Below are positions 383-20,779 of a DNA stretch of 32,169 nucleotides, one piece after another (the stretch's first letter is position 1; each line of letters begins with the position of its first letter). Origin of the DNA: Sedimenticola sp. (GTDB lineage Bacteria; Pseudomonadota; Gammaproteobacteria; Chromatiales; Chromatiaceae); the NCBI GenBank assembly GCA_027083925.1, contig JALWMK010000168.1, forward strand, positions 1 to 32,169, in the 5' to 3' direction. The notes beneath the pieces were generated by a model. The model was not told where the DNA came from, ran no database searches, and saw only the letters and a list, made by a program, of their open reading frames with translations. Both the position numbers and the translations under genes were made by a program.

Positions 383-1861
383 TCATTTGCGCAGTTTGTA
401 AATGATAACGCCCTGTTGCCCGTTGGTGATTTTCTGCACCGGGGTCAGCCCCTGGCCATACAGCAATTGCTGCAGTTTGCTGTTGGCTTTGTCCTTGCGG
501 GTGCGCACAAAGGCATAGTCATACTCTTCCACAGGGGTTGCCCCTGGTCTGTAACGGCGAAACACATAGTGTTTGTCGTCGTTCTTGTTGCTGTAATAGC
601 CCACTCTTTCCGCATGGTAATCGGTGAGTATCCGGGCGCCGTCCGGCAGGTTTTCCTGCGCCCAGCTGGCGGCGTCGAGGATATAGACCTTAGGCTTTGC
701 GGAGCTGATCAGGCTGTCTGCAAACAACAGGGTGATGCAGATCGCGATGACGGCCATGCGTGGTTTGAGCCTGGGGTTTTCCCGAATCCTCTGTTGCAGC
801 TCCTCCATACTGAAAACCACGATCACCAGCAGCATCAGCGCCAGCGCCATGGTGTAGCGGGAGACCATGATGAAGTGCTGGGCGCCATGGAGGAACAGCA
901 GCAGAAAGCTGATTGCTGCATAAAGGCCGATGATCTTGCGCGCTTCCCCTGGAAGATTCGTTGCCGGCAACCAGCGGCGCAATAGCAGAATACCGAAATA
1001 GAGCCAGGAAAGGCTGCTGAACAGATCTTTGGCAATGCTGTAGATCACGCCCAGATAAATCGTTGTTTCCGCTGTGGACTGGGAGAGCTGCGGCAGCACC
1101 TCATGCCGCAGCAGGTTCGCCTTGCCGGGAATGATTTCGGTGAATGTGGACAGGAGGCTGCCCGTTTTGGTTATGGTTTCCGCCAGGCGGTTTTGAAAGC
1201 TGCTGGAAAACGCCATCATGAGGGCAAAGACAAAGGTGATGGCAATGACGGGCAACAGGGTCAGTGCGACATGTCCAAGGCGCTGTCGCAGGGGCAGCGC
1301 CGTGTTTAGCAACAAGCCGAGGGGCATGATGGCCAGAAAGACAGCACCTTCCACACGAAACAGGGTGGCAATGAGCATCGCCAGATTCCATAGCAGCAGG
1401 TTCTTCCAGGAAAACTCACGGAACAGGTGCAGGTAGGCGATCATGGCCACCAGGCTGAATGCCCAGTAGCCATGATCGCGGATAATTTCTGCCCGGTTGT
1501 CATTCAGATAGGGCAGGGACAGTACCAGCAATGCTGCCCAGAGTAGCGTATTGCGGCCACCGCCCAGGGTTTCGACCAGGCGTATGAATGCCAGCACCAG
1601 CAGTGTGTCCAGCAGGATGTTCAGCAACCAGGCGGCGTGTTCCGGCTCCAGGCCCAGGGTCAGGCTGATTCCCTTTATCAGGTAGGGATAAAACAGCCAG
1701 TTGCCGATCTGCTTGATGCTGGCGGTGTCCCCCTGCAGGGCCAGGAGATAGTAAACAGCATCGTGATTGATTTGCGGGGCGCTGTGGATCTGCCACAGTG
1801 ACAGCAGCAGACCCAGCAGTGCTGCGCCGATATAGATGGGCAGCGTTTCCCGCAGTTTCAT
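383..1861 (-). CDS. GT-C family membrane glycosyltransferase (PMT/ArnT/GT39-like)
   Basis: The product is 492 residues with many hydrophobic helices (for example about 8-24, 75-95, 105-118, 134-147, 155-190, 198-216 and several between 310 and 400) and a soluble C-terminal domain of about 100 residues. This is the layout of polyprenyl-phosphate-sugar-dependent GT-C enzymes, which move a sugar in the periplasm. An acidic residue after helix 1 (INHDAVYY, D34) sits where GT-C proteins keep their catalytic loop acid, and a charged RDHGYW motif lies at 128-133. The start is the ATG at 1859-1861 (MKLRETLP), which overlaps the stop of the upstream sulfotransferase as ATGA. The frame stays open a further 46 codons, but that extension copies the neighbour's coding region. 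It is the last gene of a deacetylase-sulfotransferase-GT set. The family is fairly secure, but acceptor and donor cannot be read from sequence. Confidence 0.8.
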   Translation of the reverse strand: MKLRETLPIYIGAALLGLLLSLWQIHSAPQINHDAVYYLLALQGDTASIKQIGNWLFYPYLIKGISLTLGLEPEHAAWLLNILLDTLLVLAFIRLVETLGGGRNTLLWAALLVLSLPYLNDNRAEIIRDHGYWAFSLVAMIAYLHLFREFSWKNLLLWNLAMLIATLFRVEGAVFLAIMPLGLLLNTALPLRQRLGHVALTLLPVIAITFVFALMMAFSSSFQNRLAETITKTGSLLSTFTEIIPGKANLLRHEVLPQLSQSTAETTIYLGVIYSIAKDLFSSLSWLYFGILLLRRWLPATNLPGEARKIIGLYAAISFLLLFLHGAQHFIMVSRYTMALALMLLVIVVFSMEELQQRIRENPRLKPRMAVIAICITLLFADSLISSAKPKVYILDAASWAQENLPDGARILTDYHAERVGYYSNKNDDKHYVFRRYRPGATPVEEYDYAFVRTRKDKANSKLQQLLYGQGLTPVQKITNGQQGVIIYKLRK

Positions 1862-2661
1862 GGTTTTGGGTTGTAGTGGAAAGCCTCCAGCAATTCTCCG
1901 GCTTCCTGCCGGATAAAGGCTTTTTCTTCCTTCGACAGCCTGGACAGCGAGCGGGCATTCATGTTGCGGATATTGGATGCATCGCCATGGATGATCCATT
2001 TCTTGTCAAGAACCAGCCTGGAGCTATCGAGGCCAAGAAACTTCATCATCCTGTCCAGGTTTTCAGCGGGCTGTGAGGTGACGTCTTCGTAGCGGAGCAA
2101 AAGCTTGTGCTCAACCTGCTCGAGTTGCCCCAGCATGATGTTGTTCGATGCCCGCCACTGCTTGGCCGCCACCTCAACAGACTGTCCCGCCTTGCGATGT
2201 ATGCCTTCCGCCACGGCATAGCCATTGCGTATCAGGGCGATAAAGTGCGCGTTGGGAAAGTGCTCGTTGAGCCAGATAATGCGGGCAGCATTGGGGATGG
2301 ATTTTTCCAGAAAAACCGGCAGAGTGGGGTTGGACATGTAACCGCACCACTGGCGCTTGATTTTTTCGGCATCAGGCTGGCTATCGGCAGAGGGAATAAA
2401 CAGTTCCGGCTGAAACGCCCATATTCTGGTGAGACCGATTTCACTGGGGATCAGTAGTTGATCGGTGCAATACTGCCCTTCCCTGGGCAAATGGGCAACG
2501 GACGGATGGCTGGCGATAACATCGTGCAACAAGGTGGTGCCGGAGTTGTAACAGCCAACGATGAATACCCATTTTTTGGGCTGACAGGCCTTGCCCTGCT
2601 TTGCCAACCGATCCAGCTTGATTTGCCGCTGCTTTTTTTTAAGCCATTTTTTTAGATTCAT
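1858..2661 (-). CDS. Sulfotransferase family protein
   Basis: The 267-residue protein has the PAPS-binding 5'-phosphosulfate loop GCYNSGTTLL at 36-45 and the second PAPS contact region around R145 (FIALIRNGYAVAEG). It would transfer sulfate from PAPS to a hydroxyl or amine, probably on a surface saccharide. The Ser that usually follows the RxP-type motif is not obvious here, so activity is inferred. The N-terminal 30 residues are strongly basic (MNLKKWLKKKQRQIK), encoded through A7 and A8 tracts. Both gene ends overlap their neighbours by 4 bp (ATGA with the deacetylase at 2658-2661 and with the membrane glycosyltransferase at 1858-1861), indicating one translationally coupled operon. No separate Shine-Dalgarno is evident, which fits coupling. 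Confidence 0.83.
   Translation of the reverse strand: MNLKKWLKKKQRQIKLDRLAKQGKACQPKKWVFIVGCYNSGTTLLHDVIASHPSVAHLPREGQYCTDQLLIPSEIGLTRIWAFQPELFIPSADSQPDAEKIKRQWCGYMSNPTLPVFLEKSIPNAARIIWLNEHFPNAHFIALIRNGYAVAEGIHRKAGQSVEVAAKQWRASNNIMLGQLEQVEHKLLLRYEDVTSQPAENLDRMMKFLGLDSSRLVLDKKWIIHGDASNIRNMNARSLSRLSKEEKAFIRQEAGELLEAFHYNPKP
2633..2653 (-). repeat. Two homopolymeric A tracts at the 5' end of the sulfotransferase
   Basis: Read in the gene's direction, an A7 tract (2653-2647) falls in codons 3-5 and an A8 tract (2640-2633) in codons 8-10. Indels here would shift frame immediately after the start codon. Both tracts are intact and in frame in this sequence. Confidence 0.7.
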
Positions 2662-3587
2662 AAACGTATGTCCGAACGGGTGATGTCACATTGGGCCTCG
2701 ATATCATCGCGCCCCCAGAGGGTGAAACGCCCCAAAGTAAAAATGGATGACTGGTTACTTTCCAGAGGAAGGGAAGTCTTGCGTTTGTCCAGGCTCAGGC
2801 CATATTGCAGCCCCGTGTTTCTGGCGGCTTCCACGGCAGTGTTGGAGTAATTGCCGTTTGGGTAGGCGATACCTGTTGGCGCCCTTCCCAGCCAGTTGTC
2901 GAGATCATGTTGTGCGCTGAGAATCTGTTTTTCCACTTCCGCGCCACTGTACCGATCCAGCAAATAGTGATCACGAGTATGGTTGCCGATATGCACCAGG
3001 GGGTGCCCAGCAAACTCCTGCAATTCCCTAATCGTCATGGGGCGATCCGTTTCCGACCAGGGCCGAAGGCAGTTGGTTCCAAATTCCTGCTGCAGGTAGC
3101 CGAGAATGTCCTGATGGTGTTTTTCCTTGAGCATTTTTTGTTCACGGGATATCAATGGTTTCGCCATGCCACGCCGGTGGCGCTCACGATATACCACATC
3201 CCACCAGAAACTCTGCTGCTCTTCCACGTTTCCGGTAGTGATATAGAAGGTAGCCGGAACATCATACTGTTCCAGCAGGGGCAGCATGCGCAGGTTATTG
3301 GCATAGCCGTCGTCAAATGTGATGCAGATCCACTTTTGGTTGCTGCAGAGAAAGTCCAGGCCCTGCTCGGGGCTGACGAACCGGTAGCCGGCCTGCAGAA
3401 AATACTCGATAAACTGCTGCATATGCTGGCGGGTGATTCCCTGCTGGGCATCGACATGCCCTTTGTTGAGTTCCTGTTCGTCTTCAAATATCCCGTGAAA
3501 GAGAAAACCCAGCAGGGCAGGCCTGTCCCGGTGCAGGCGGGACAGGCTGCGGCGCAGGGATTGCTTGATCTGTTTGCTGAAAGACAC
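2658..3587 (-). CDS. Polysaccharide deacetylase (NodB homology, CE4)
   Basis: The 309-residue protein has CE4 motif 1 (TFDDG, 90-94), motif 2 (NHTRDH, metal ligands H203 and H207) and a third motif around AYPNGNYS (241-248). These enzymes use a bound divalent metal to remove N- or O-acetyl groups from polysaccharides. No signal peptide is visible; the N-terminus is basic (MSFSKQIKQSLRRSLSRLHRDR), so action on a lipid-linked precursor at the cytoplasmic side, or another export route, is possible. The start is GTG at 3585-3587; no ATG lies before the conserved fold begins. The gene heads a minus-strand trio and starts only 36 bp from the divergent sulfotransferase. Within the trio it could expose an amine that is later sulfated, which is inference. 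Confidence 0.85.
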   Translation of the reverse strand: MSFSKQIKQSLRRSLSRLHRDRPALLGFLFHGIFEDEQELNKGHVDAQQGITRQHMQQFIEYFLQAGYRFVSPEQGLDFLCSNQKWICITFDDGYANNLRMLPLLEQYDVPATFYITTGNVEEQQSFWWDVVYRERHRRGMAKPLISREQKMLKEKHHQDILGYLQQEFGTNCLRPWSETDRPMTIRELQEFAGHPLVHIGNHTRDHYLLDRYSGAEVEKQILSAQHDLDNWLGRAPTGIAYPNGNYSNTAVEAARNTGLQYGLSLDKRKTSLPLESNQSSIFTLGRFTLWGRDDIEAQCDITRSDIRL

Positions 3588-9620: not shown

Positions 9621-10180
9621 AAGTACTGGAAACCGATATCCCTGGCGTACTGATCGTCGAACCTGACGTGCATGGCGACAAGCGTGGCTGGTTCATGGAG
9701 GTCTGGCAGCAGCAGCGCTATGTTGAGGCGGGCATGGATGCCGCTTTCGTGCAGGACAATATGGCGCTGTCCAGCCATGGCATCCTGCGTGGCCTGCATC
9801 TGCAACATCCGCATGCCCAGGGCAAACTGGTGCAGGTGGTCATGGGCGAGGTGTTCGATGTGGCGGTGGATGTACGCCGGGGGTCTCCTCATTTCGGTAA
9901 ATGGGTGGGGGTGATCCTTTCCGGTGATACCCGTCGCCAACTGTGGGTGCCGCCGGGTTTCGCCCACGGCTATGTGGTGACCAGCAATCAGGCCATTTTC
10001 AGCTACAAATGCACTGAACGCTATCATCCGGAAACCGACCTGAGCATCCGCTGGGATGATGAGGATATTGGTATCGACTGGCCCATTGTGGGCAAACCCA
10101 GCCTGTCCGGCAAAGATGCCGATGCCCTGATGTTGAAAGACATTCCGGAACAGCGCCTGCCGGAGTATCGTCATGAGTGA
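9617..10180 (+). CDS. rfbC: dTDP-4-dehydrorhamnose 3,5-epimerase
   Basis: The 187-residue cupin-fold enzyme epimerises C3 and C5 of the 4-keto-6-deoxy intermediate. RGLHLQ (58-63) supplies the catalytic base H61, and Y130 in FSYKCTERY is the expected acid. The length is typical (E. coli 185). It starts in ATGA overlap with rfbA, and its stop lies 8 bp inside rfbD. Confidence 0.96.
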
Positions 10181-11087
10181 AACATCCCCACTGGTTCTGC
10201 TGTTTGGCCACAGTGGCCAGCTTGGCTGGGAGTTGCGCCGCACCCTGGCTCCCCTGGGGGAGATCGTAACCGCAGGTGTGGATGGCGCCGGCCATTATCT
10301 GGATCTGACCGATGGCGCTGCCCTGGATGCGCTGGTGCATGATTTGCGCCCTGCGTTGATGGTGAACGCCACGGCATACACAGCGGTGGACGAGGCCGAA
10401 GCTGAAGAAAAGCTGGCCTACCGGATCAATGCAGAGGTGGTTGGTGAAATGGGCAGGCTGGGCGCTGAAATGGACATTCCGGTGCTGCATTTTTCCACCG
10501 ATTATGTGTTTTCCGGCGTCGCAGACCGGCCCTGGAAGGAGCATGACGTACCCGCCCCCAGGAGCATCTACGGTAAATCCAAGCTTGCCGGAGAGCAGGC
10601 CCTGTTTGCATCCCGCGCAGAGCACCTGATACTGCGCACCGCCTGGGTGTATGGTGGCAGGGGCAGAAATTTTCTGCTTACCATGCAACGGCTTTTTGCC
10701 GAGAAAGACCGGCTCAAGGTGGTTGCCGACCAGTTTGGCGCGCCCACCTGGTCACGCTTCATTGCCGAGGCCGCATCCCAGGTGCTGGCGCAATGCAAAA
10801 CACCTCAGGGTCAGTTCCGCTTTGGCAGGCATGATGGCCAGGTGTTCCACCTCACTGCTGCAGGACAGGCCAGCTGGCATGAATTTGCCCAGGCGATTCT
10901 CGAACAGACTGCAGAAGACTGTGTGCTCGATCCGATTTCCACGGAACAGTATCCCACGCCCGCCGCCCGCCCCGCCTATTCCGTGCTGGACAATGATAAC
11001 CTTGCGGCGGCTTTCGGTGTGCGCCTGCCCCACTGGCGGCGGGGGCTGGCCCTGTGCCTGGAAGAAATGCAGCACGCCGGCGCCTGA
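10173..11087 (+). CDS. rfbD: dTDP-4-dehydrorhamnose reductase
   Basis: This is the last step to dTDP-L-rhamnose, an NAD(P)H-dependent reduction of the 4-keto group. The 304-residue SDR has GHSGQLG (12-18) for cofactor binding, STDYVF (108-113) and the catalytic YGKSK (Y133, K137). It overlaps rfbC by 8 bp and ends 7 nt before the acyltransferase start. No rhamnosyltransferase follows, so the user of the sugar is encoded elsewhere. Confidence 0.96.
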   Translation: MSETSPLVLLFGHSGQLGWELRRTLAPLGEIVTAGVDGAGHYLDLTDGAALDALVHDLRPALMVNATAYTAVDEAEAEEKLAYRINAEVVGEMGRLGAEMDIPVLHFSTDYVFSGVADRPWKEHDVPAPRSIYGKSKLAGEQALFASRAEHLILRTAWVYGGRGRNFLLTMQRLFAEKDRLKVVADQFGAPTWSRFIAEAASQVLAQCKTPQGQFRFGRHDGQVFHLTAAGQASWHEFAQAILEQTAEDCVLDPISTEQYPTPAARPAYSVLDNDNLAAAFGVRLPHWRRGLALCLEEMQHAGA

Positions 11088-11094
11088 CGGGGTC

Positions 11095-12021
11095 GTGGCA
11101 AACAGGTATAAAGGACTACCGCTGTATCATCCGCGCCTGTGGCCTGCCTGGGCCGGAGTTGGCGTCCTGCGCCTGCTGGCGTGGCTGCCCTATCCGGTGA
11201 TCCTGTTTATTGGCCCTTTCGTGGGGCGGCTGTATATGCTGCTCCTGCCCAAGCGAAGAAAAATCGCGCAAATCAATATCGATCTTTGTTTTCCCGATCG
11301 AACCCCTCAGTGGCGGAAGCAGTTGTTGCGTGAAAACCGCGACAATCTCGGCATCAGCCTGCTCGAAGCCCCCCTCGCCTGGTGGGGCTCGCCACGCCGT
11401 ATTGCAAAGCTCGTGCATGTGCATGGGCTGGAGAACCTGCAGCAGGCATTGCAGCGTGGCAAAGGCGTTTTGCTCCTGTCTGCGCATCTGAACAGCCCGG
11501 AGCTGGGCAGCCGCCTGCTGCTGCATGTGCAGCCGTTCATGGGCATGTATCGCCCGGACAACAACCCGGTCATGGAGCGAGTCATCAGCAACGGGCGGCG
11601 CAAATGGATCCAGGGGCTGATTCCCCGGCACAATGTGCGGAGCCTGATTCGCGCCCTTAAACAAGGCCATGCCGTATGGTATGCTGCAGACCAGAATACG
11701 GCGCGCCGGGAGTCCGTATTTGCGGAGTTTTTCGGCATCACAGCTTCCACCAATTCCGCCACTGCACGCCTGGCGAAGCTGAGCGGAGCAGCCGTCGTGC
11801 CGTTTCGCGCCATACGGCGAAAAGACGGCAGGGGACACGATCTGTTTCTGGAGCCGCCCTGGGAGGATTTTCCCGGTGATGATTTGCTGGCAAATACCCA
11901 ACGAGTAAATGACCTGGTGGAGAGATGGGTGCGTGAAACCCCGGAGCAATACATGTGGATCCATCGCCGTTTTCGCACCCGCCCCCAGCGCTCTGACCCC
12001 CGGCTCTATCCGGTGGATTGA
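11095..12021 (+). CDS. LpxL/LpxM-like lipid A late acyltransferase
   Basis: The 308-residue protein belongs to the LpxL/HtrB lysophospholipid acyltransferase group, which adds secondary acyl chains to Kdo-lipid A at the inner membrane. The catalytic HX4E is seen as AHLNSPE (H131, E136), preceded by a hydrophobic N-terminal helix (about 21-50, GVGVLRLLAWLPYPVILFIG) and followed by an MYRPDNNP block and the C-terminal PEQYMWIHRRF motif typical of the family. The start is GTG at 11095, 7 nt after rfbD; the frame extends upstream only as a shadow of rfbD. The stop TGA directly abuts the msbA ATG. Which acyl position it modifies cannot be read from the sequence. Confidence 0.87.
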   Translation: MANRYKGLPLYHPRLWPAWAGVGVLRLLAWLPYPVILFIGPFVGRLYMLLLPKRRKIAQINIDLCFPDRTPQWRKQLLRENRDNLGISLLEAPLAWWGSPRRIAKLVHVHGLENLQQALQRGKGVLLLSAHLNSPELGSRLLLHVQPFMGMYRPDNNPVMERVISNGRRKWIQGLIPRHNVRSLIRALKQGHAVWYAADQNTARRESVFAEFFGITASTNSATARLAKLSGAAVVPFRAIRRKDGRGHDLFLEPPWEDFPGDDLLANTQRVNDLVERWVRETPEQYMWIHRRFRTRPQRSDPRLYPVD

Positions 12022-15264: not shown

Positions 15265-16125
15265 ATGATGAGAAAACACAGTTTGATTTTCGTGGTGGGC
15301 GGTTGCCTGCTGCTGGCAAGCATGGCGGTGGCCGGGCAACGCAGCCCTGAACCGCTCAAGACGCTCTCGCCGGAAACCGGGGCAGCGATGGAATTCAAGC
15401 TCTCCTATGAGTCTTTTTCCGGCGTGGAACTGGATGAAGTTGAGGATTTTGATGGCTGGACCACCATGGCGGAGGTTTCCCTGCCCTTTATGGACAGGTT
15501 CCGGATCCGTTTCAGCTACCCGTTTAATACCGAAGGCGACGCCACGGTGAAATCCGGTCATTACACCATGCCGGGTGAATCCATCGATATCGACGGCAAT
15601 GGTGGCGTGTTTGATTTCATGACCCTTACCTTCGAGCATCAGCTGCAAAGCTTGGACGATGCCGGTTACGGCCTGGCCTATTACCTGGGCGCTGGCGCGG
15701 TTCCGGAGCGTCTGGAGACGACCCTGGCGCGCCCAGGCACTGGTTATGACGCCATCAACCATACGGGCACGGTGTTTCTTGCCGGAATAAGAATGGATCG
15801 GCGGCACGGCTTTGGCCACGGCATTACCAACCTGGGGCTGCGCTACTATGGCAGTTCGGATGATCTGAACCCCGGTTCCAGCGACCAGTTTGTCGTCGCC
15901 GACCTGAAGGCGGCGATCCTGTTCAATCCCTGGGGTGCGGTGCATCCTGTGCTGGAGCTGACCTATCTGGGGGATTTTTCCGACATGAACCAGCTTACCC
16001 TGTATCCCGGCCTGGTATTGCCCCTGGGCAAGAGCATCGACCTGAAAGCCGGGGCGGCAATTGGCCTGGGGGGTAACGGCAGCGAGTTTGGCGGCCATGC
16101 CCAGGCCGTCTTTCGTTTCTTCTAG
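15265..16125 (+). CDS. Probable outer-membrane beta-barrel protein
   Basis: The 286-residue protein has a Sec signal peptide (basic MMRKH, hydrophobic LIFVVGGCLLLASM, likely cut after AVA at residue 23). The rest is rich in alternating hydrophobic/aromatic strands and Gly and ends in Phe (AQAVFRFF), the classic barrel C-terminal signature. C14 lies inside the hydrophobic core and is not a convincing lipobox. I do not recognise the exact family. An ATG pair at 15265/15268 gives two equivalent starts. It follows the hairpin at 15224 and precedes hldE by 13 nt, so it may open a new transcript that runs into the core-synthesis genes. Confidence 0.65.
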   Translation: MMRKHSLIFVVGGCLLLASMAVAGQRSPEPLKTLSPETGAAMEFKLSYESFSGVELDEVEDFDGWTTMAEVSLPFMDRFRIRFSYPFNTEGDATVKSGHYTMPGESIDIDGNGGVFDFMTLTFEHQLQSLDDAGYGLAYYLGAGAVPERLETTLARPGTGYDAINHTGTVFLAGIRMDRRHGFGHGITNLGLRYYGSSDDLNPGSSDQFVVADLKAAILFNPWGAVHPVLELTYLGDFSDMNQLTLYPGLVLPLGKSIDLKAGAAIGLGGNGSEFGGHAQAVFRFF

Positions 16126-16138
16126 CCCGCAGGTTTTC

Positions 16139-17563
16139 GTGCGCGAGCTTCCTGATTTTTCCGTAGCGAGAGTGCTGGTTGCCGGCGACCTGATGCTGGA
16201 TCGCTACTGGCACGGCGTTACGGAGCGTATTTCGCCGGAAGCGCCGGTGCCCGTGGTGCATGTGCGGGATGAGGAAGGCCGCGCTGGCGGCAGCGGCAAT
16301 GTGGCGGTGAATATCGCCGCCCTGGGCGGCCAGGTGTCCCTGCTGGGACTGGTGGGAGAGGATGCTGCCGCCGATCGCCTGGAGGCAGGTCTGCGGCAGG
16401 CGGGGGTGCAGACACAGTTATTCCGCGAGCCTGCCTATCCTACCATCACCAAGCTGCGGGTCATCAGCCGCCATCAGCAGCTCATCCGGCTGGACTTCGA
16501 AGACGGTTTTCCCGATTACGATCCCGCCGAGATGCTGCATCGCTTCGAGGCGCTGCTGAAAGGGCATGACGTAGTGGTGCTGTCCGATTACGGCAAAGGC
16601 ACCCTGGCGCACCCCCAGGCATGGATAGCGCTGGCCCGGGAAGCGGGCGTCCCCGTGCTCATCGACCCCAAGGGGCGGGATTTCAGCCGCTACCAGGGAG
16701 CCAGCCTGATTACGCCGAATCTATCCGAATTCGAGACTGCGGCCGGTTGTTGCAGTACGCAGAAAGAACTGGAAACCGCCGCCCGCAAGCTCATTGGTGA
16801 CTGCGGCCTGGAGCATCTGCTCATCACCCGGGGAGAGCAGGGCATGAGCCTGATGAATGCTGCCGGGGATGTACATCACCTGCCCACCCGCGCCCAGGAG
16901 GTTTTCGATGTCACGGGCGCCGGCGACACCGTTATTGCCACCCTCGCATTGGCCCTGGCCGCAGGGCAGTCCATGGAGGCGGCCACGGCCCTGGCCAACC
17001 TGGCGGCGGGCATCGTGGTGGGCAAGCTGGGCACCGCCAGCATCAGTGCCGCAGAGCTGACCCAAGGGCTGCAGGAGCAGCGCCTGGCAGAGCATGGCGT
17101 GGTTACGGAAGACCGCCTCGCGGATCTTGTAGCCGCCGCCCGTCATCGGGGTGAGCGCATCGTATTCACCAATGGTTGTTTCGATCTGTTGCATGCCGGT
17201 CATGTCACCTACCTGGAGCAGGCCAGCCGCCTGGGGGATCGCCTCATCGTGGCGGTGAACGTGGACGAGACCGTGCGTCAGCTCAAGGGTCCGGAACGAC
17301 CGGTCAACCCCCTTGTTAACCGCATGCATGTGCTGGCGGCCCTGGGCTTTGTCGATTGGGTGGTGCCTTTCGCCGAAGAAACCCCCGAACGCCTTATCTG
17401 CTGCCTGCGGCCCGATCTGCTGGTGAAGGGTGGCGACAATGATCCGGATGCGATTCCCGGCGCTTCCTGTGTGCGCGAAGCCGGGGGTGAGGTACGGGTG
17501 TTGAGCTATATCGATGGTGTTTCCACCACCTCCATCGTGGACAGCATCAAACAGGGTTCGTGA
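16139..17563 (+). CDS. hldE: Bifunctional heptose-7-phosphate kinase / heptose-1-phosphate adenylyltransferase HldE
   Basis: This enzyme makes ADP-D-glycero-manno-heptose precursor for the LPS inner core. The 474 residues (E. coli 477) comprise an N-terminal ribokinase/PfkB domain (RISPEAPVPVV at 30-40, GGSGN at 50-54, anion-hole and catalytic GAGD at 260-263) and a C-terminal nucleotidyltransferase domain (FTNGCFDLLHAGH, with HAGH at 352-355, and LVKGGDN near 428). The start is GTG at 16139, where MRELPDF aligns with the E. coli N-terminus and an AGG lies 5 nt upstream; an ATG at 16097 would add 14 residues from the preceding gene's 3' end. It is coupled to the FAD oxidoreductase by a GTGA overlap. 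Confidence 0.96.
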   Translation: MRELPDFSVARVLVAGDLMLDRYWHGVTERISPEAPVPVVHVRDEEGRAGGSGNVAVNIAALGGQVSLLGLVGEDAAADRLEAGLRQAGVQTQLFREPAYPTITKLRVISRHQQLIRLDFEDGFPDYDPAEMLHRFEALLKGHDVVVLSDYGKGTLAHPQAWIALAREAGVPVLIDPKGRDFSRYQGASLITPNLSEFETAAGCCSTQKELETAARKLIGDCGLEHLLITRGEQGMSLMNAAGDVHHLPTRAQEVFDVTGAGDTVIATLALALAAGQSMEAATALANLAAGIVVGKLGTASISAAELTQGLQEQRLAEHGVVTEDRLADLVAAARHRGERIVFTNGCFDLLHAGHVTYLEQASRLGDRLIVAVNVDETVRQLKGPERPVNPLVNRMHVLAALGFVDWVVPFAEETPERLICCLRPDLLVKGGDNDPDAIPGASCVREAGGEVRVLSYIDGVSTTSIVDSIKQGS

Positions 17564-18726
17564 GTACGCACCAGCCGGATTTGCTGATCTTTGGCGGCGG
17601 TATCGCCGGACTCTGGACATTGCTGCGGGCGCGCCGGGCGGGATACCAGGCGCTGTTGCTGGAATCCACCGCGCTCGGCGGGCTGCAATCCATCGCCTCC
17701 CAGGGCATTATTCACGGTGGAACCAAATACGCCCTCAAGGGTGGCGTCGGTAAATCCACCCAGGCCATTGCTGGTATGCCCGGCATATGGCGGGACGCCC
17801 TGGCGGGAAGGGGAGATGTGGATCTGTCTGCCGCAAGGGTGCTTTCTCCGCATCAACATCTGTGGTCCAGTGGCGGCATCCGCTCTTCCCTGGCCGGCGT
17901 ATTCGCCAGCAAACTCATGCAGGGCAAGGTTGCCTCCCTTGCGAGGGCGCAGTTTCCTCCTCCGTTTGATGTGCCGGGTTTTCATGGCAGACTGTATGAG
18001 CTGCAGGAGCCGGTAGTGGACGTGTCCTCTTTGCTGCGGGTGATGATGGAACAGGCGTTGCCCGCCTGTTACCGCTATGACCCGAAAAAATTGCAAGTCG
18101 AAGATGGCGGCCTGCAAATCGGGCAACTGCGTCTGCAGCCCCGGCGGGTGCTGCTGGCGGCGGGAGAGGGCAATGCAGGATTGCTGGAGCGCTGGGGGAT
18201 GGAGCTTCCCCAAATGCAAAAAAGACCCCTGCACATGGTGATGCTGAAAGGACTCTTGCCCGCCATGTATGCCCATTGCCTGGGAGCCAGCGCCATTCCC
18301 CGTCTCACCATCACCAGCTACCCCCTGGGGGATGATGAAATGCTCTGGTATCTGGGCGGACAATTGGCGGAAGAAGGTGTGACGCGCACCCCGGCGGAAC
18401 AGATCGCCGTGGCGAAATCCGAGCTGGCAAAGCTCCTGCCCTGGATGGATTTTTCCCGCCTGGGTTGGGCCACCCTGGAAATCAGCCGCGCCGAAGTGGC
18501 CTCGCCGGGGGGCAAACGTCCGGACGATTGCTATCTTGGCGGCGAGGGCCGTGTCATGGTGGCCTGGCCCACCAAACTGGCGTTTGCGCCCCGGCTGGGG
18601 GATCTGGTGCTGCAGGAGCTGGGTCAGGAAGGATTGAAACCGGAAAGAGAAGAGGCCCCCACTCTTTCCCTGCCTCATCCGCCGCTGGCGTCTCTGCCGT
18701 GGGAAAAGGTGGACACATGGAGCTGA
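17560..18726 (+). CDS. FAD-dependent oxidoreductase (DadA/GlpO-like fold), substrate unknown
   Basis: The 388-residue protein starts with a textbook dinucleotide motif IFGGGIAG (10-17) and an acidic residue after strand 2 (E35), followed by GGLQSIASQGIIHGGTKYAL, which resembles FAD contacts in D-amino-acid/glycerol-3-phosphate oxidoreductases. A second FAD-contact strand (RVLLAAGEGNAGLL) follows. There is no signal peptide or membrane segment. GTG at 17560 overlaps the hldE stop, and the last 10 bp overlap the aldo/keto reductase gene. Lying between ADP-heptose synthesis and Kdo transfer, it is a candidate sugar-oxidising enzyme for the core, but no substrate can be assigned from sequence. 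Confidence 0.78.
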   Translation: MSTHQPDLLIFGGGIAGLWTLLRARRAGYQALLLESTALGGLQSIASQGIIHGGTKYALKGGVGKSTQAIAGMPGIWRDALAGRGDVDLSAARVLSPHQHLWSSGGIRSSLAGVFASKLMQGKVASLARAQFPPPFDVPGFHGRLYELQEPVVDVSSLLRVMMEQALPACYRYDPKKLQVEDGGLQIGQLRLQPRRVLLAAGEGNAGLLERWGMELPQMQKRPLHMVMLKGLLPAMYAHCLGASAIPRLTITSYPLGDDEMLWYLGGQLAEEGVTRTPAEQIAVAKSELAKLLPWMDFSRLGWATLEISRAEVASPGGKRPDDCYLGGEGRVMVAWPTKLAFAPRLGDLVLQELGQEGLKPEREEAPTLSLPHPPLASLPWEKVDTWS

Positions 18727-19490
18727 GGGATCTTGGCGATACCGGCATTCGGATCAGTCCCCTGGGGTTGGGTACGGTGAAATTCGGGCGCAACCAGCAG
18801 GTGAAATATCCTTCCTCGTTCGAGATTCCCGATGATGATGCGGTGATGCATATTCTTGAGGTGGCCCGGGCGCTGGGCATCAACCTCCTGGATACGGCGC
18901 CCGCCTACGGTATGGCCCAGCAGCGCCTGGGCAAACTGTTGCCGGGGCAGCGCGAGGACTGGGTGATCGTTTCCAAGGTGGGGGAGATTTTCGATCAAGG
19001 CCATTCGCGCTTTGATTTCAGCCACGCCCATACCCTGGCCTCGGTGGAACAGAGCCTGCGGGAACTGAATACCGATTACCTGGACTGCGTACTGATTCAT
19101 TCCGACGGGAATGATCTGCGCATCCTGGAGCAGGAAGGGGCGCTGGACGCCCTGCGTGAGTTAAAGGAGAAAGGCCTGATCCGTGCGCACGGCATGTCCT
19201 CGAAAACCGTGCCGGGCGGACTGAAGGTAGTGGAGGAAATGGATGTGGTCATGGCCACCGCCAATCTGGAATACGATGGGGAAAGGCCGGTATTGGAAGC
19301 GGCGAAACGGAAAAACAAGGGTGTGCTGGTGAAAAAAGGCTTGATGAGTGGCCATGTGCAGGGCGGGGAGAGAGTGCGCGCTTCCATGGCCCATGTGTTT
19401 TCCCTGCCGGGGGTGAGCAGCATGATCATCGGCACCATCAATGAGCAGCACCTGCGGCAGAATGTCGCCGTGGTGGATTCTCTGGCATGA
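18717..19490 (+). CDS. Aldo/keto reductase
   Basis: The 257-residue protein has the AKR tetrad in order: D59 and Y64 in LLDTAPAYG, K87 in VIVSKVG and H128 in VLIHSDG. It is shorter than most bacterial AKRs of the general-stress type (about 300-340 residues), because the C-terminal part after strand 7 is compact and ends ...MIIGTINEQHLRQNVAVVDSLA, so it is likely complete. The ATG at 18717 lies 10 bp inside the FAD oxidoreductase gene, and its stop overlaps waaA (ATGA). It would reduce a carbonyl using NAD(P)H. Coupling to the FAD enzyme suggests an oxidation/reduction pair on one substrate, which is inference. Confidence 0.87.
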   Translation: MELRDLGDTGIRISPLGLGTVKFGRNQQVKYPSSFEIPDDDAVMHILEVARALGINLLDTAPAYGMAQQRLGKLLPGQREDWVIVSKVGEIFDQGHSRFDFSHAHTLASVEQSLRELNTDYLDCVLIHSDGNDLRILEQEGALDALRELKEKGLIRAHGMSSKTVPGGLKVVEEMDVVMATANLEYDGERPVLEAAKRKNKGVLVKKGLMSGHVQGGERVRASMAHVFSLPGVSSMIIGTINEQHLRQNVAVVDSLA

Positions 19491-20779
19491 GACGGCTGTA
19501 TACACTGATTCTGTATCTGCTGCTGCCGGGAGTGATGGCGCGCCTGCTTTGGCGAAGCACCAAGTCGCCGGGTTACAGGCAGCGCTGGAAAGAGCGTTTT
19601 GGTTTCTGGCGGCATTCCCCGACCCCGGGCGGAATCTGGATTCATGCTGTGTCCGTGGGGGAAGTGCAGGCGGTGGAGCCTCTGGTGCGGCATCTGCGGG
19701 AGCACTATCCCCGGCTTCCCCTGACGATTACCACCTCTACGCCCACGGGTTCCGGGCGGGTGCGGCTTTTGTTCAGTGAGACCGTATTTCATGTGTACTG
19801 CCCCTACGACCTGCCTGCTGCGGTGCAGCGTTTTGTGGATAAAGTCCGGCCTTGCCTGCTGATTATGGTAGAGACGGAAATCTGGCCGAATCTACTGGCG
19901 ATCTGTGAACGGCAGGGCATTCCCGCCTTGCTTGCCAATGGCCGACTTTCTGCCCGTTCTGCCAGAGGTTATGCGCGCTTGGGTGGCTTTTCCCGCAGGG
20001 TATTTGCCGGTATCAGCGCCGTGGCGGCGCAGTCCCGGGCGGATGCTGACCGCTTTGTCGAGCTGGGAGTGCCGCAGCAACGGGTGCGGGTAAGCGGCAG
20101 TATCAAGTTTGACATGCGTATCCCCGCCAGCGTCCAGGAACAGGTTCAGGTCTTGCGCCGCGCTTGGGGCGACAGGCCTGTATGGGTGGCAGCCAGCACC
20201 CATGAAGGCGAGGACGAGCAGGTGCTGACAGCGCATCGGAGGATACTGGAGAAAACACCACTGGCCTTGTTGGTGCTGGTGCCCAGGCACCCCGAGCGCT
20301 TTGGCAAGGTTGCGGCGTTGATTCAGCGCCGGGGCTTTCAAATGGCCAGACGCTCCCGGGGACAAGCTTGTGGTGAGCAGATTCAGGTGTTTCTTGGTGA
20401 TACCATGGGAGAGTTGCTGGTGTTTCTGGGTGGCGCCGATGTGGCTTTTGTCGGTGGCAGTCTGGTCAGGGTTGGTGGTCACAATATGCTGGAGGCTGCG
20501 GCTCAGGGGGTGCCGGTGTTATTTGGCCCTCACGTCTTCAATTTTTCCGGCATTGCCCGTCTGCTGCGTGACAGGGAGGCGGCTGTGATGGTTCAGGACA
20601 GCGAAGTCCTGGGGCGCCAGGTGTCCGCCTGGCTGCACGATGCCAGCGAGCGTTCCCGCGTCGGCGAAAACGGGCGCCAGGTGGTGGAAGAAAACCGGGG
20701 CGCGCTACAGCGTCTCGTGGCGCTGGTGGATGAATTCCTTCCCGGACAGGTTGGGGGGGGGTCAGAAGGAAAATCCTGA
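19487..20779 (+). CDS. waaA: 3-deoxy-D-manno-octulosonic acid (Kdo) transferase WaaA
   Basis: The enzyme transfers Kdo from CMP-Kdo to lipid IVA at the cytoplasmic face. Its 430 residues (E. coli 425) comprise an N-terminal membrane anchor (5-22), HAVSVGE (53-59, catalytic base E59), the VETEIWPN block (128-135), VSGSIKFDM (near 204-212) and a GT-B C-terminal domain with FVGGSLVRVGGHNMLEAAAQGVP-type sugar-nucleotide contacts. It starts in ATGA overlap with the aldo/keto reductase gene. The last codons run through a nine-G tract, and the stop lies 18 bp inside the convergent methyltransferase gene. Confidence 0.95.
   Translation: MRRLYTLILYLLLPGVMARLLWRSTKSPGYRQRWKERFGFWRHSPTPGGIWIHAVSVGEVQAVEPLVRHLREHYPRLPLTITTSTPTGSGRVRLLFSETVFHVYCPYDLPAAVQRFVDKVRPCLLIMVETEIWPNLLAICERQGIPALLANGRLSARSARGYARLGGFSRRVFAGISAVAAQSRADADRFVELGVPQQRVRVSGSIKFDMRIPASVQEQVQVLRRAWGDRPVWVAASTHEGEDEQVLTAHRRILEKTPLALLVLVPRHPERFGKVAALIQRRGFQMARRSRGQACGEQIQVFLGDTMGELLVFLGGADVAFVGGSLVRVGGHNMLEAAAQGVPVLFGPHVFNFSGIARLLRDREAAVMVQDSEVLGRQVSAWLHDASERSRVGENGRQVVEENRGALQRLVALVDEFLPGQVGGGSEGKS
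20753..20761. repeat. Nine-G homopolymer at the 3' end of waaA
   Basis: G9 encodes the Gly-Gly-Gly near the WaaA C-terminus. Losing one G would replace the last residues and extend the protein by about 17 codons to a stop near 20828. The tract ends 1 nt from the convergent gene's stop codon. Confidence 0.8.

Follow-up and report, generated by a model that had tools for sequence, protein, structure and literature searches.

What is the role of a flavoprotein and an aldo/keto reductase encoded among genes for the inner core of lipopolysaccharide (LPS)? The window analysed here, a stretch of 32,169 nucleotides from Sedimenticola sp. (contig JALWMK010000168.1 of assembly GCA_027083925.1), carries between hldE and waaA the genes of a flavin adenine dinucleotide (FAD) enzyme and of an aldo/keto reductase (AKR), together referred to as the pair. 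Our analysis points to the pair as a putative two-enzyme, non-homologous replacement for HldD, the ADP-heptose 6-epimerase, and we put the probability of this reading at about seven in ten. Arguing for it are the order and adjacency of the genes, the co-occurrence of the pair with hldE, its exclusion of hldD and the exchange of the two in one genomic slot, the active-site residues, the orthology to PA4991 and PA4992 of Pseudomonas aeruginosa, and the covariation of a loop in HldE. The reading is further favoured because many Pseudomonas lack HldD although the cores analysed from this genus hold L-glycero-D-manno-heptose, because rfaD, the hldD gene of P. aeruginosa, can be deleted in mvfR-mutant strains while PA4991 and PA4992 are reported to be essential, and because PA4991 shares a His, an Arg and a Lys with glycerol-3-phosphate dehydrogenase, its authors expecting a substrate with a phosphate or carboxylate.

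In the proposed scheme, the FAD enzyme would oxidize the C6 hydroxyl of D-glycero-D-manno-heptose, in its phosphate or nucleotide form, to a ketone, which the AKR would reduce from the other side with reduced nicotinamide adenine dinucleotide phosphate (NADPH), yielding L-glycero-D-manno-heptose for the LPS inner core. The net outcome would be an inversion at one carbon, presumably pulled by NADPH, and it could take place either on heptose-1-phosphate before adenylylation or on ADP-heptose after it. Which substrate the pair uses, at which carbon and in which direction it acts, which cofactor it takes in the cell and where the electrons go are all inferred here.

The gene pair and its neighbourhood

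The genes concerned, and the HldE loop discussed below, are located in the window as follows:

16139..17563, + strand: hldE, heptose-7-phosphate kinase / heptose-1-phosphate adenylyltransferase (NF008454 score 710 bits, cut-off 521; probable GTG start)
17426..17464, + strand: adenylyltransferase loop of HldE, KGGDNDPDAIPGA, residues 456-468 of P0004; differs in pair-bearing genomes
17560..18726, + strand: FAD enzyme, GR2/DAO fold, PA4991 orthologue, 388 residues, GTG start; proposed heptose C6 oxidase or dehydrogenase
18717..19490, + strand: AKR, PA4992 orthologue, 257 residues, ATG start; proposed NADPH-dependent, C6-inverting keto reductase
19487..20779, + strand: waaA, transferase of 3-deoxy-D-manno-oct-2-ulosonic acid (Kdo), ATG start (NF004388 score 568 bits, cut-off 438)

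The order hldE, FAD enzyme, AKR, waaA, all on the + strand and with overlaps of 4, 10 and 4 bases, had been noted in a first-pass annotation, and the open reading frame coordinates bear it out: hldE and the FAD gene share GTGA, the FAD and AKR genes share ten bases, and the AKR gene and waaA share ATGA. Judged by these overlaps, the four genes may form one translational unit. The frame of hldE is open from 16061 and the NF008454 profile matches only from residue 29; GTG 16139, which sits after the stop of the upstream gene at 16125, is probably the true start. Pfam finds DAO in the FAD enzyme (5e-11), Aldo_ket_red in the AKR (7e-29), a Kdo transferase domain in WaaA (1e-68), and PfkB and CTP_transf_like in HldE. 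The FAD gene is the single match in its own genome.

Across 55 genomes, own included, strong matches to the FAD gene (E <= 5.7e-76) and to the AKR gene (E <= 4.2e-74) occur in exactly the same 20, side by side, and because of this shared and adjacent occurrence the pair is not a chance arrangement. The exact 10-base overlap recurs in 17 of the 19 related loci, the other two overlapping by 1 and 4 bases; hldE adjoins the pair in 16 (one of the remaining loci is cut by the end of its contig, and in two hldE lies about 4.5 and 8 kb off), and waaA follows directly 3' in 13. A wider set from the class sample introduced below gives an FAD-AKR distance of at most 125 bases in 29 of 30 loci and of 901 bases in the other, with HldE found within 1.5 kb either side of the pair in 22 of 30 and WaaA in 10 of 30. 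At the named loci, the AKR stands beside the FAD gene in 79 of 80, the other being cut by a contig end, with HldE inside the examined stretch in 69 and WaaA in 62. Thus, in the class loci the pair is linked more strongly to hldE than to waaA, and in Pseudomonas both are near; waaA, whose adjacency is kept in only part of the loci, is a neighbour outside the proposed system. Carriers of the FAD gene belong to 26 families in the class sample; in the phylum they number 20 of 348 genomes (own included), all of the same class, in a sample for which the share of other classes is not shown. The first-pass annotation had named homologues scattered over unrelated contexts as a refutation; the neighbourhood survey shows conserved contexts. 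A weak FAD homologue is seen in one genome (G301; locus L216, 1222-5592) between msbA and waaA, with no HldE match in the genome and no AKR beside it within the 10 kb examined; it is perhaps a changed or decaying copy.

Both proteins have close relatives of known structure. The FAD enzyme matches PA4991 (5EZ7) over its full length (phmmer E 3e-104, residues 6-382) and superimposes on it in Foldseek with template-modelling (TM) scores of 0.85/0.91; its next structural neighbours are glycine, sarcosine, L-2-hydroxyglutarate and glycerol-3-phosphate enzymes. Its residues H52, R310 and K339, which correspond to His53, Arg316 and Lys345 of PA4991 as read from the phmmer alignment, are invariant in 19 aligned rows, taken from the 20 pair genomes with L063 (genome G001) left out. 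In the corresponding 19 rows of the AKR, which matches PA4992 (4EXA) over its full length (phmmer E 1.2e-86, residues 4-253) and whose structure model reaches a pLDDT of 93.8, the catalytic D59, Y64, K87 and H128 are likewise invariant. All NCBIfam matches of the two proteins fall far below the family cut-offs, the HldD profile (TIGR02197) matches neither, and Pfam assigns to the pair DAO and Aldo_ket_red only, with neither an aminotransferase nor a metal alcohol dehydrogenase.

The crystal structures of PA4991 and PA4992 date from papers of 2012 and 2016. The two genes lie in the same operon and are both reported as essential in transposon screens, and the active site of PA4991, with His53, Arg316 and Lys345, is described as resembling that of glycerol-3-phosphate dehydrogenase (PMC4741190). 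According to the same paper, PA4991 is inactive on 41 amines, amino acids included, and its function is called elusive, a phosphate- or carboxylate-bearing substrate being expected. The function of the pair is unassigned in the available portions of the literature searched (PMC4741190, PMC3539698, PMC10119676, PMC12632274), a coverage outside which most subscription journals lie.

Exclusion of HldD and exchange in one slot

In a class sample of 370 genomes, each at least 90% complete, with scoring for the FAD gene and HldD confined to each genome's five best first-look candidates, the FAD gene is present in 43, HldD over its curated cut-off in 172 and domain II of HldE, the adenylyltransferase, in 267. 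Among these 267, 41 have the FAD gene only, 169 have HldD only, none has both and 57 have neither (Fisher p 2e-21, uncorrected for kinship). Collapsed by family, with family labels entered by hand, the exclusion persists: 23 families have the FAD gene only, 85 have HldD only, 27 have neither, and in 3 the two kinds occur but never in one genome (p 1e-9). In the 55-genome set, where all first-look candidates were scored, HldD passes the cut-off in 6 genomes and in 0 of the 20 that carry the pair; the genome of the window itself has no HldD match over the cut-off.

The three mixed families are f53, f110 and f111. In all five HldD loci examined there, hldD comes right after hldE, and in f110 and f111 the pair comes after hldE in 4 of 4 loci, one of them with a gap of 627 bases; in the one pair locus of f53, the pair stands just before hldE. 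Two families, then, have hldD in some genomes and the pair in others at the position behind hldE. As to the genomes with neither system, waaA directly follows hldE in 9 of the 20 loci examined out of 57 (L218-L237). A third epimerase beside hldE was sought in these 20 of the 57 and none was identified; several unidentified gene families recur there in 3 to 5 of the 20 loci, so that a third route may yet exist.

The FAD gene is common in Pseudomonas, as seen from the best 80 of 574 confirmed matches. Of 28 named Pseudomonas and Stutzerimonas genomes with the gene, 19 are without HldD, species of the P. syringae group among them, and so are two other, non-named genomes of the same set; a further 18 FAD-bearing genomes comprise 15 without HldD and 3 with both. 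Two L-glycero-D-manno-heptoses are described as conserved in all Pseudomonas cores analysed, with P. cichorii as a possible exception, and this paper on the DC3000 core, in its available portions, names hldE and makes no mention of hldD, rfaD or an epimerase (PMC8005017). Where HldD is lacking, something else must set C6, and the pair is the natural candidate.

What does HldD do where both systems are present? In 8 of the 9 named both-system genomes (L189-L197), two P. lundensis strains among the eight, hldD is preceded at a distance of 73-78 bases by an Anr-like box that agrees with the consensus at 8 or more of its 10 positions; of 500 shuffled upstream stretches, between 0 and 44 scored as well. 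In P. citronellolis, the ninth genome, the match is only 7 of 10. In P. aeruginosa, rfaD is listed as Anr-induced (PMC8575079) and is among the Anr-regulated transcripts (PMC8087004); its deletion from mvfR-mutant strains did not make them hypersensitive to polymyxin, an outcome explained in that study by an LPS with D-heptose (PMC10269820). The HldD of both-system genomes may thus be an oxygen-independent, anaerobic reserve, which stays a suggestion only because Stutzerimonas stutzeri K1 is without HldD. The apparent control of Pseudomonas HldD by Anr also raised the idea that the pair strictly depends on oxygen; it was not adopted, as the K1 strain has the FAD gene and no HldD, and S. stutzeri is a denitrifier.

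The HldE loop, the step order and competing explanations

Does HldE itself bear a trace of the pair? We compared 40 rows from pair genomes with 25 from HldD genomes and 19 from genomes with neither, picked from the loci at hand and not at random; L142, with no full HldE, and L237, whose HldE is 39% identical, were left out. The adenylyltransferase loop that follows the KGGD motif contains residue 466, which all 40 pair rows have as Pro, Val or Ile, whereas 42 of the 44 other rows have Ala. Of 208 columns that are conserved in the non-pair rows, only this one differs in every pair row. Outside pair genomes, the usual loop reads KGGDYxPEEIAGx; pair genomes have two main types, KGGDNDPDxIPG and a second one, KGGDYGVDQVVG, which belongs to Pseudomonas and a few others, with the loops of L077 and L078 fitting neither fully. 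Among the named pair loci, the 69 that include HldE all show Val or Pro at residue 466; some of these loci are among the 40 rows. The largest column difference in the adenylyltransferase is 0.96 for pair against HldD rows and 0.95 for pair against neither rows, whereas HldD and neither rows differ by no more than 0.65, and 200 random relabellings, made without regard to kinship, gave no more than 0.57.

A pair-specific column was sought in two further places. In the kinase domain of HldE, pair rows differ from HldD rows by up to 0.58 and from neither rows by up to 0.74, and at the latter column HldD and neither rows also differ by 0.64. In GmhB (30 pair and 24 HldD sequences), it is 0.56, in a variable column; 24 of 30 HldD-side loci were used here. 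L308-L311, which pass the curated cut-off, were omitted, as were L336 and L337, both second copies, and the HldD genomes G079 and G274 had no match. In a tree of the kinase domain, pair rows do not form one clade: supported branches force at least 3 changes and the best tree has 15, with a bootstrap that had not settled. Given this covariation, HldE of pair genomes probably either adenylylates another epimer or passes its product on to the pair, and C6 may be inverted before nucleotide activation.

Several points weigh against the replacement of HldD, or against the use made here of the HldE loop. With 57 of 267 HldE-bearing genomes having neither system, a genome may lack HldD and still not carry the pair. 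An HldE match is missing from G203 and G301, both FAD-bearing, the FAD gene of G301 being weak; three HldD-bearing genomes are without one, too. The genomes counted share ancestry and are no independent samples. The limit of five candidates in the class searches makes single misses possible for both the FAD gene and HldD. Both systems occur together in 9 of the 28 named Pseudomonas-type genomes (9 of 30 in that set) and in 3 of the 18 further ones, which makes up to 12 genomes, as the two sets may overlap in species, and the Pseudomonas-like nature of the 3 follows from their family label. Deleting rfaD from mvfR mutants disturbed the LPS layer and left the cells less tolerant of polymyxin than the mvfR mutant itself (PMC10269820), so the gene is at work in this background. 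Assays of PA4991 for glycerol-3-phosphate dehydrogenase, with NAD(P) as the acceptor, were negative (PMC4741190). As for the loop, the tree supports only 3 independent contrasts, of which 2-3 agree and 0 oppose (p 0.25); HldC of B. pseudomallei (5x9q) also has Pro at this place, and two non-pair rows, L273 and L235, have Val at residue 466.

At which stage would C6 be inverted? One form of the replacement, a serious possibility if short of even odds and counted within the probability given above, places the pair after HldE, with ADP-heptose as its substrate, at the very step that HldD catalyses, the changed loop serving the hand-over to the FAD enzyme. It would be the simplest one-step substitution and agrees with the exchange of slots with hldD; neither GmhB nor the kinase domain of HldE has a column as clearly pair-specific as residue 466, and in Pseudomonas with both systems, whose HldD should need ADP-D,D-heptose, the loop is still of the pair type at all 8 loci that include HldE. 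It sits less well with the resemblance of the FAD enzyme's active site to that of glycerol-3-phosphate dehydrogenase, and with the position of the changed loop after the KGG motif, as if another epimer were seen there: by docking in a related enzyme, which itself has Pro at this place, the motif contacts heptose-1-phosphate (PMC7993394). An altered order of steps is a possibility of about equal weight. Here a heptose phosphate, most likely the heptose-1-phosphate left by GmhB, would be inverted at C6 by the pair, and the substrate that HldE adenylylates would be L-glycero-D-manno-heptose-1-phosphate itself. ADP-D,D-heptose, otherwise the precursor in the pathway and an alarm signal for host cells, would then not be an obligatory intermediate.

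Other readings depart from the replacement of HldD altogether. The pair could make another heptose product, such as another epimer, a keto heptose or a deoxy heptose, with D-glycero-D-manno-heptose used for the rest. The 57 genomes with HldE and neither system indicate that core heptose may exist without a known route to the L,D form, the HldE loop does differ in pair genomes, and a D-heptose LPS has been suggested for the rfaD deletions (PMC10269820); however, the in-place exchange with hldD would be left unexplained, and L-glycero-D-manno-heptose is present in Pseudomonas cores (PMC8005017), yet 19 of 28 genomes are without HldD, which makes this reading unlikely. A modification of Kdo akin to the synthesis of 8-amino-Kdo, the parallel drawn in the first-pass annotation, has in its favour that waaA comes right after the pair, both in the window and at 13 of the 19 related loci. 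We regard it as very improbable: the pair follows hldE and excludes hldD, so that its distribution tracks these genes, waaA is not found beside it in many distant loci, and it contains neither the aminotransferase nor the metal alcohol dehydrogenase of that pathway. The broader proposal of the same annotation, an unrecognised core-sugar modification, fares better in one part, in that a redox pair acting on a core sugar fits what we find; the product is most likely no new modification but ordinary L-glycero-D-manno-heptose made by another route. Scarcely credible, finally, is an amine or amino-acid oxidase beside an unrelated reductase by chance. Glycine and sarcosine oxidases are indeed the nearest folds after 5ez7, but adjacency and co-occurrence are conserved, and the inactivity of PA4991 on the 41 amines tested (PMC4741190) speaks against the amino-acid oxidase of known role that the first-pass annotation had named as a refutation.

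Wider context and known systems

Upstream of the four genes, between 4494 and 15211 of the window, lie a Kdo/WaaP-family kinase, a carbamoyltransferase, dTDP-rhamnose-type genes, an LpxL-like acyltransferase, MsbA, a methyltransferase and an APH-like kinase. They resemble a Pseudomonas-type inner-core cluster, which suggests a phosphorylated, perhaps carbamoylated heptose core. The LpxL-like frame (10651-12021, 456 residues) overlaps the RmlD-like gene at 10173-11087, and the acyltransferase profile covers its residues 159-443 only; its true start is probably near 11100. Upstream of the cluster, on the minus strand (1858-3587), are sulfotransferase-like and polysaccharide deacetylase-like genes, possibly for further modification of surface sugars.

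If the pair does replace HldD, a function would be assigned to two Pseudomonas proteins that are reported to be essential and have crystal structures, the role of PA4991 having been elusive so far. It would explain how Pseudomonas species without HldD make L-glycero-D-manno-heptose, help to account for the deletability of rfaD in P. aeruginosa strains, and represent a second, chemically different solution, by flavin and AKR, to a textbook step in outer-membrane synthesis. Should the order of steps have changed as well, this would bear on which ADP-heptose signals pair-bearing bacteria make.

How does the pair compare with known systems? Its closest counterparts are PA4991 (5EZ7) and PA4992 (4EXA, 4EXB) of P. 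aeruginosa, orthologous by similarity and encoded in a shared operon. The window pair is placed directly between hldE and waaA, whereas at the Pseudomonas loci examined hldE lies on the other strand and, if the stretch includes it, 1.7 to 4.9 kb away from the FAD gene. With E. coli GlpD, the FAD enzyme has the GR2 fold in common (2qcu, TM 0.63) at 15% identity, and the GlpD-like feature of PA4991 is the His, Arg and Lys near the flavin (PMC4741190). The AKR is a distant relative of chain D of deoxynivalenol (DON) 3-epimerase (9WK1; E 1.1e-16), a member of the AKR superfamily named as part of an epimerase for another substrate; the partner enzyme there is quinone-dependent and not an FAD enzyme. 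In the synthesis of 8-amino-Kdo, KdnA and KdnB are a pyridoxal phosphate-dependent aminotransferase and a metal alcohol dehydrogenase.

A likeness of logic alone, between unrelated protein families, connects the pair to DprE1/DprE2, the decaprenylphosphoryl-ribose 2'-epimerase. There, two enzymes invert a lipid-linked ribose by flavin oxidation followed by nucleotide-dependent reduction; DprE1 has another flavin fold and DprE2 is a short-chain dehydrogenase/reductase (SDR). The Pfam assignments of the pair, DAO and Aldo_ket_red only, include neither a DprE1-family flavin oxidase nor an SDR reductase. HldD, an NADP enzyme of the SDR fold, is a single enzyme matched by neither protein of the pair, and still shares with it the proposed net result, inversion of heptose C6, and the genomic slot beside hldE.

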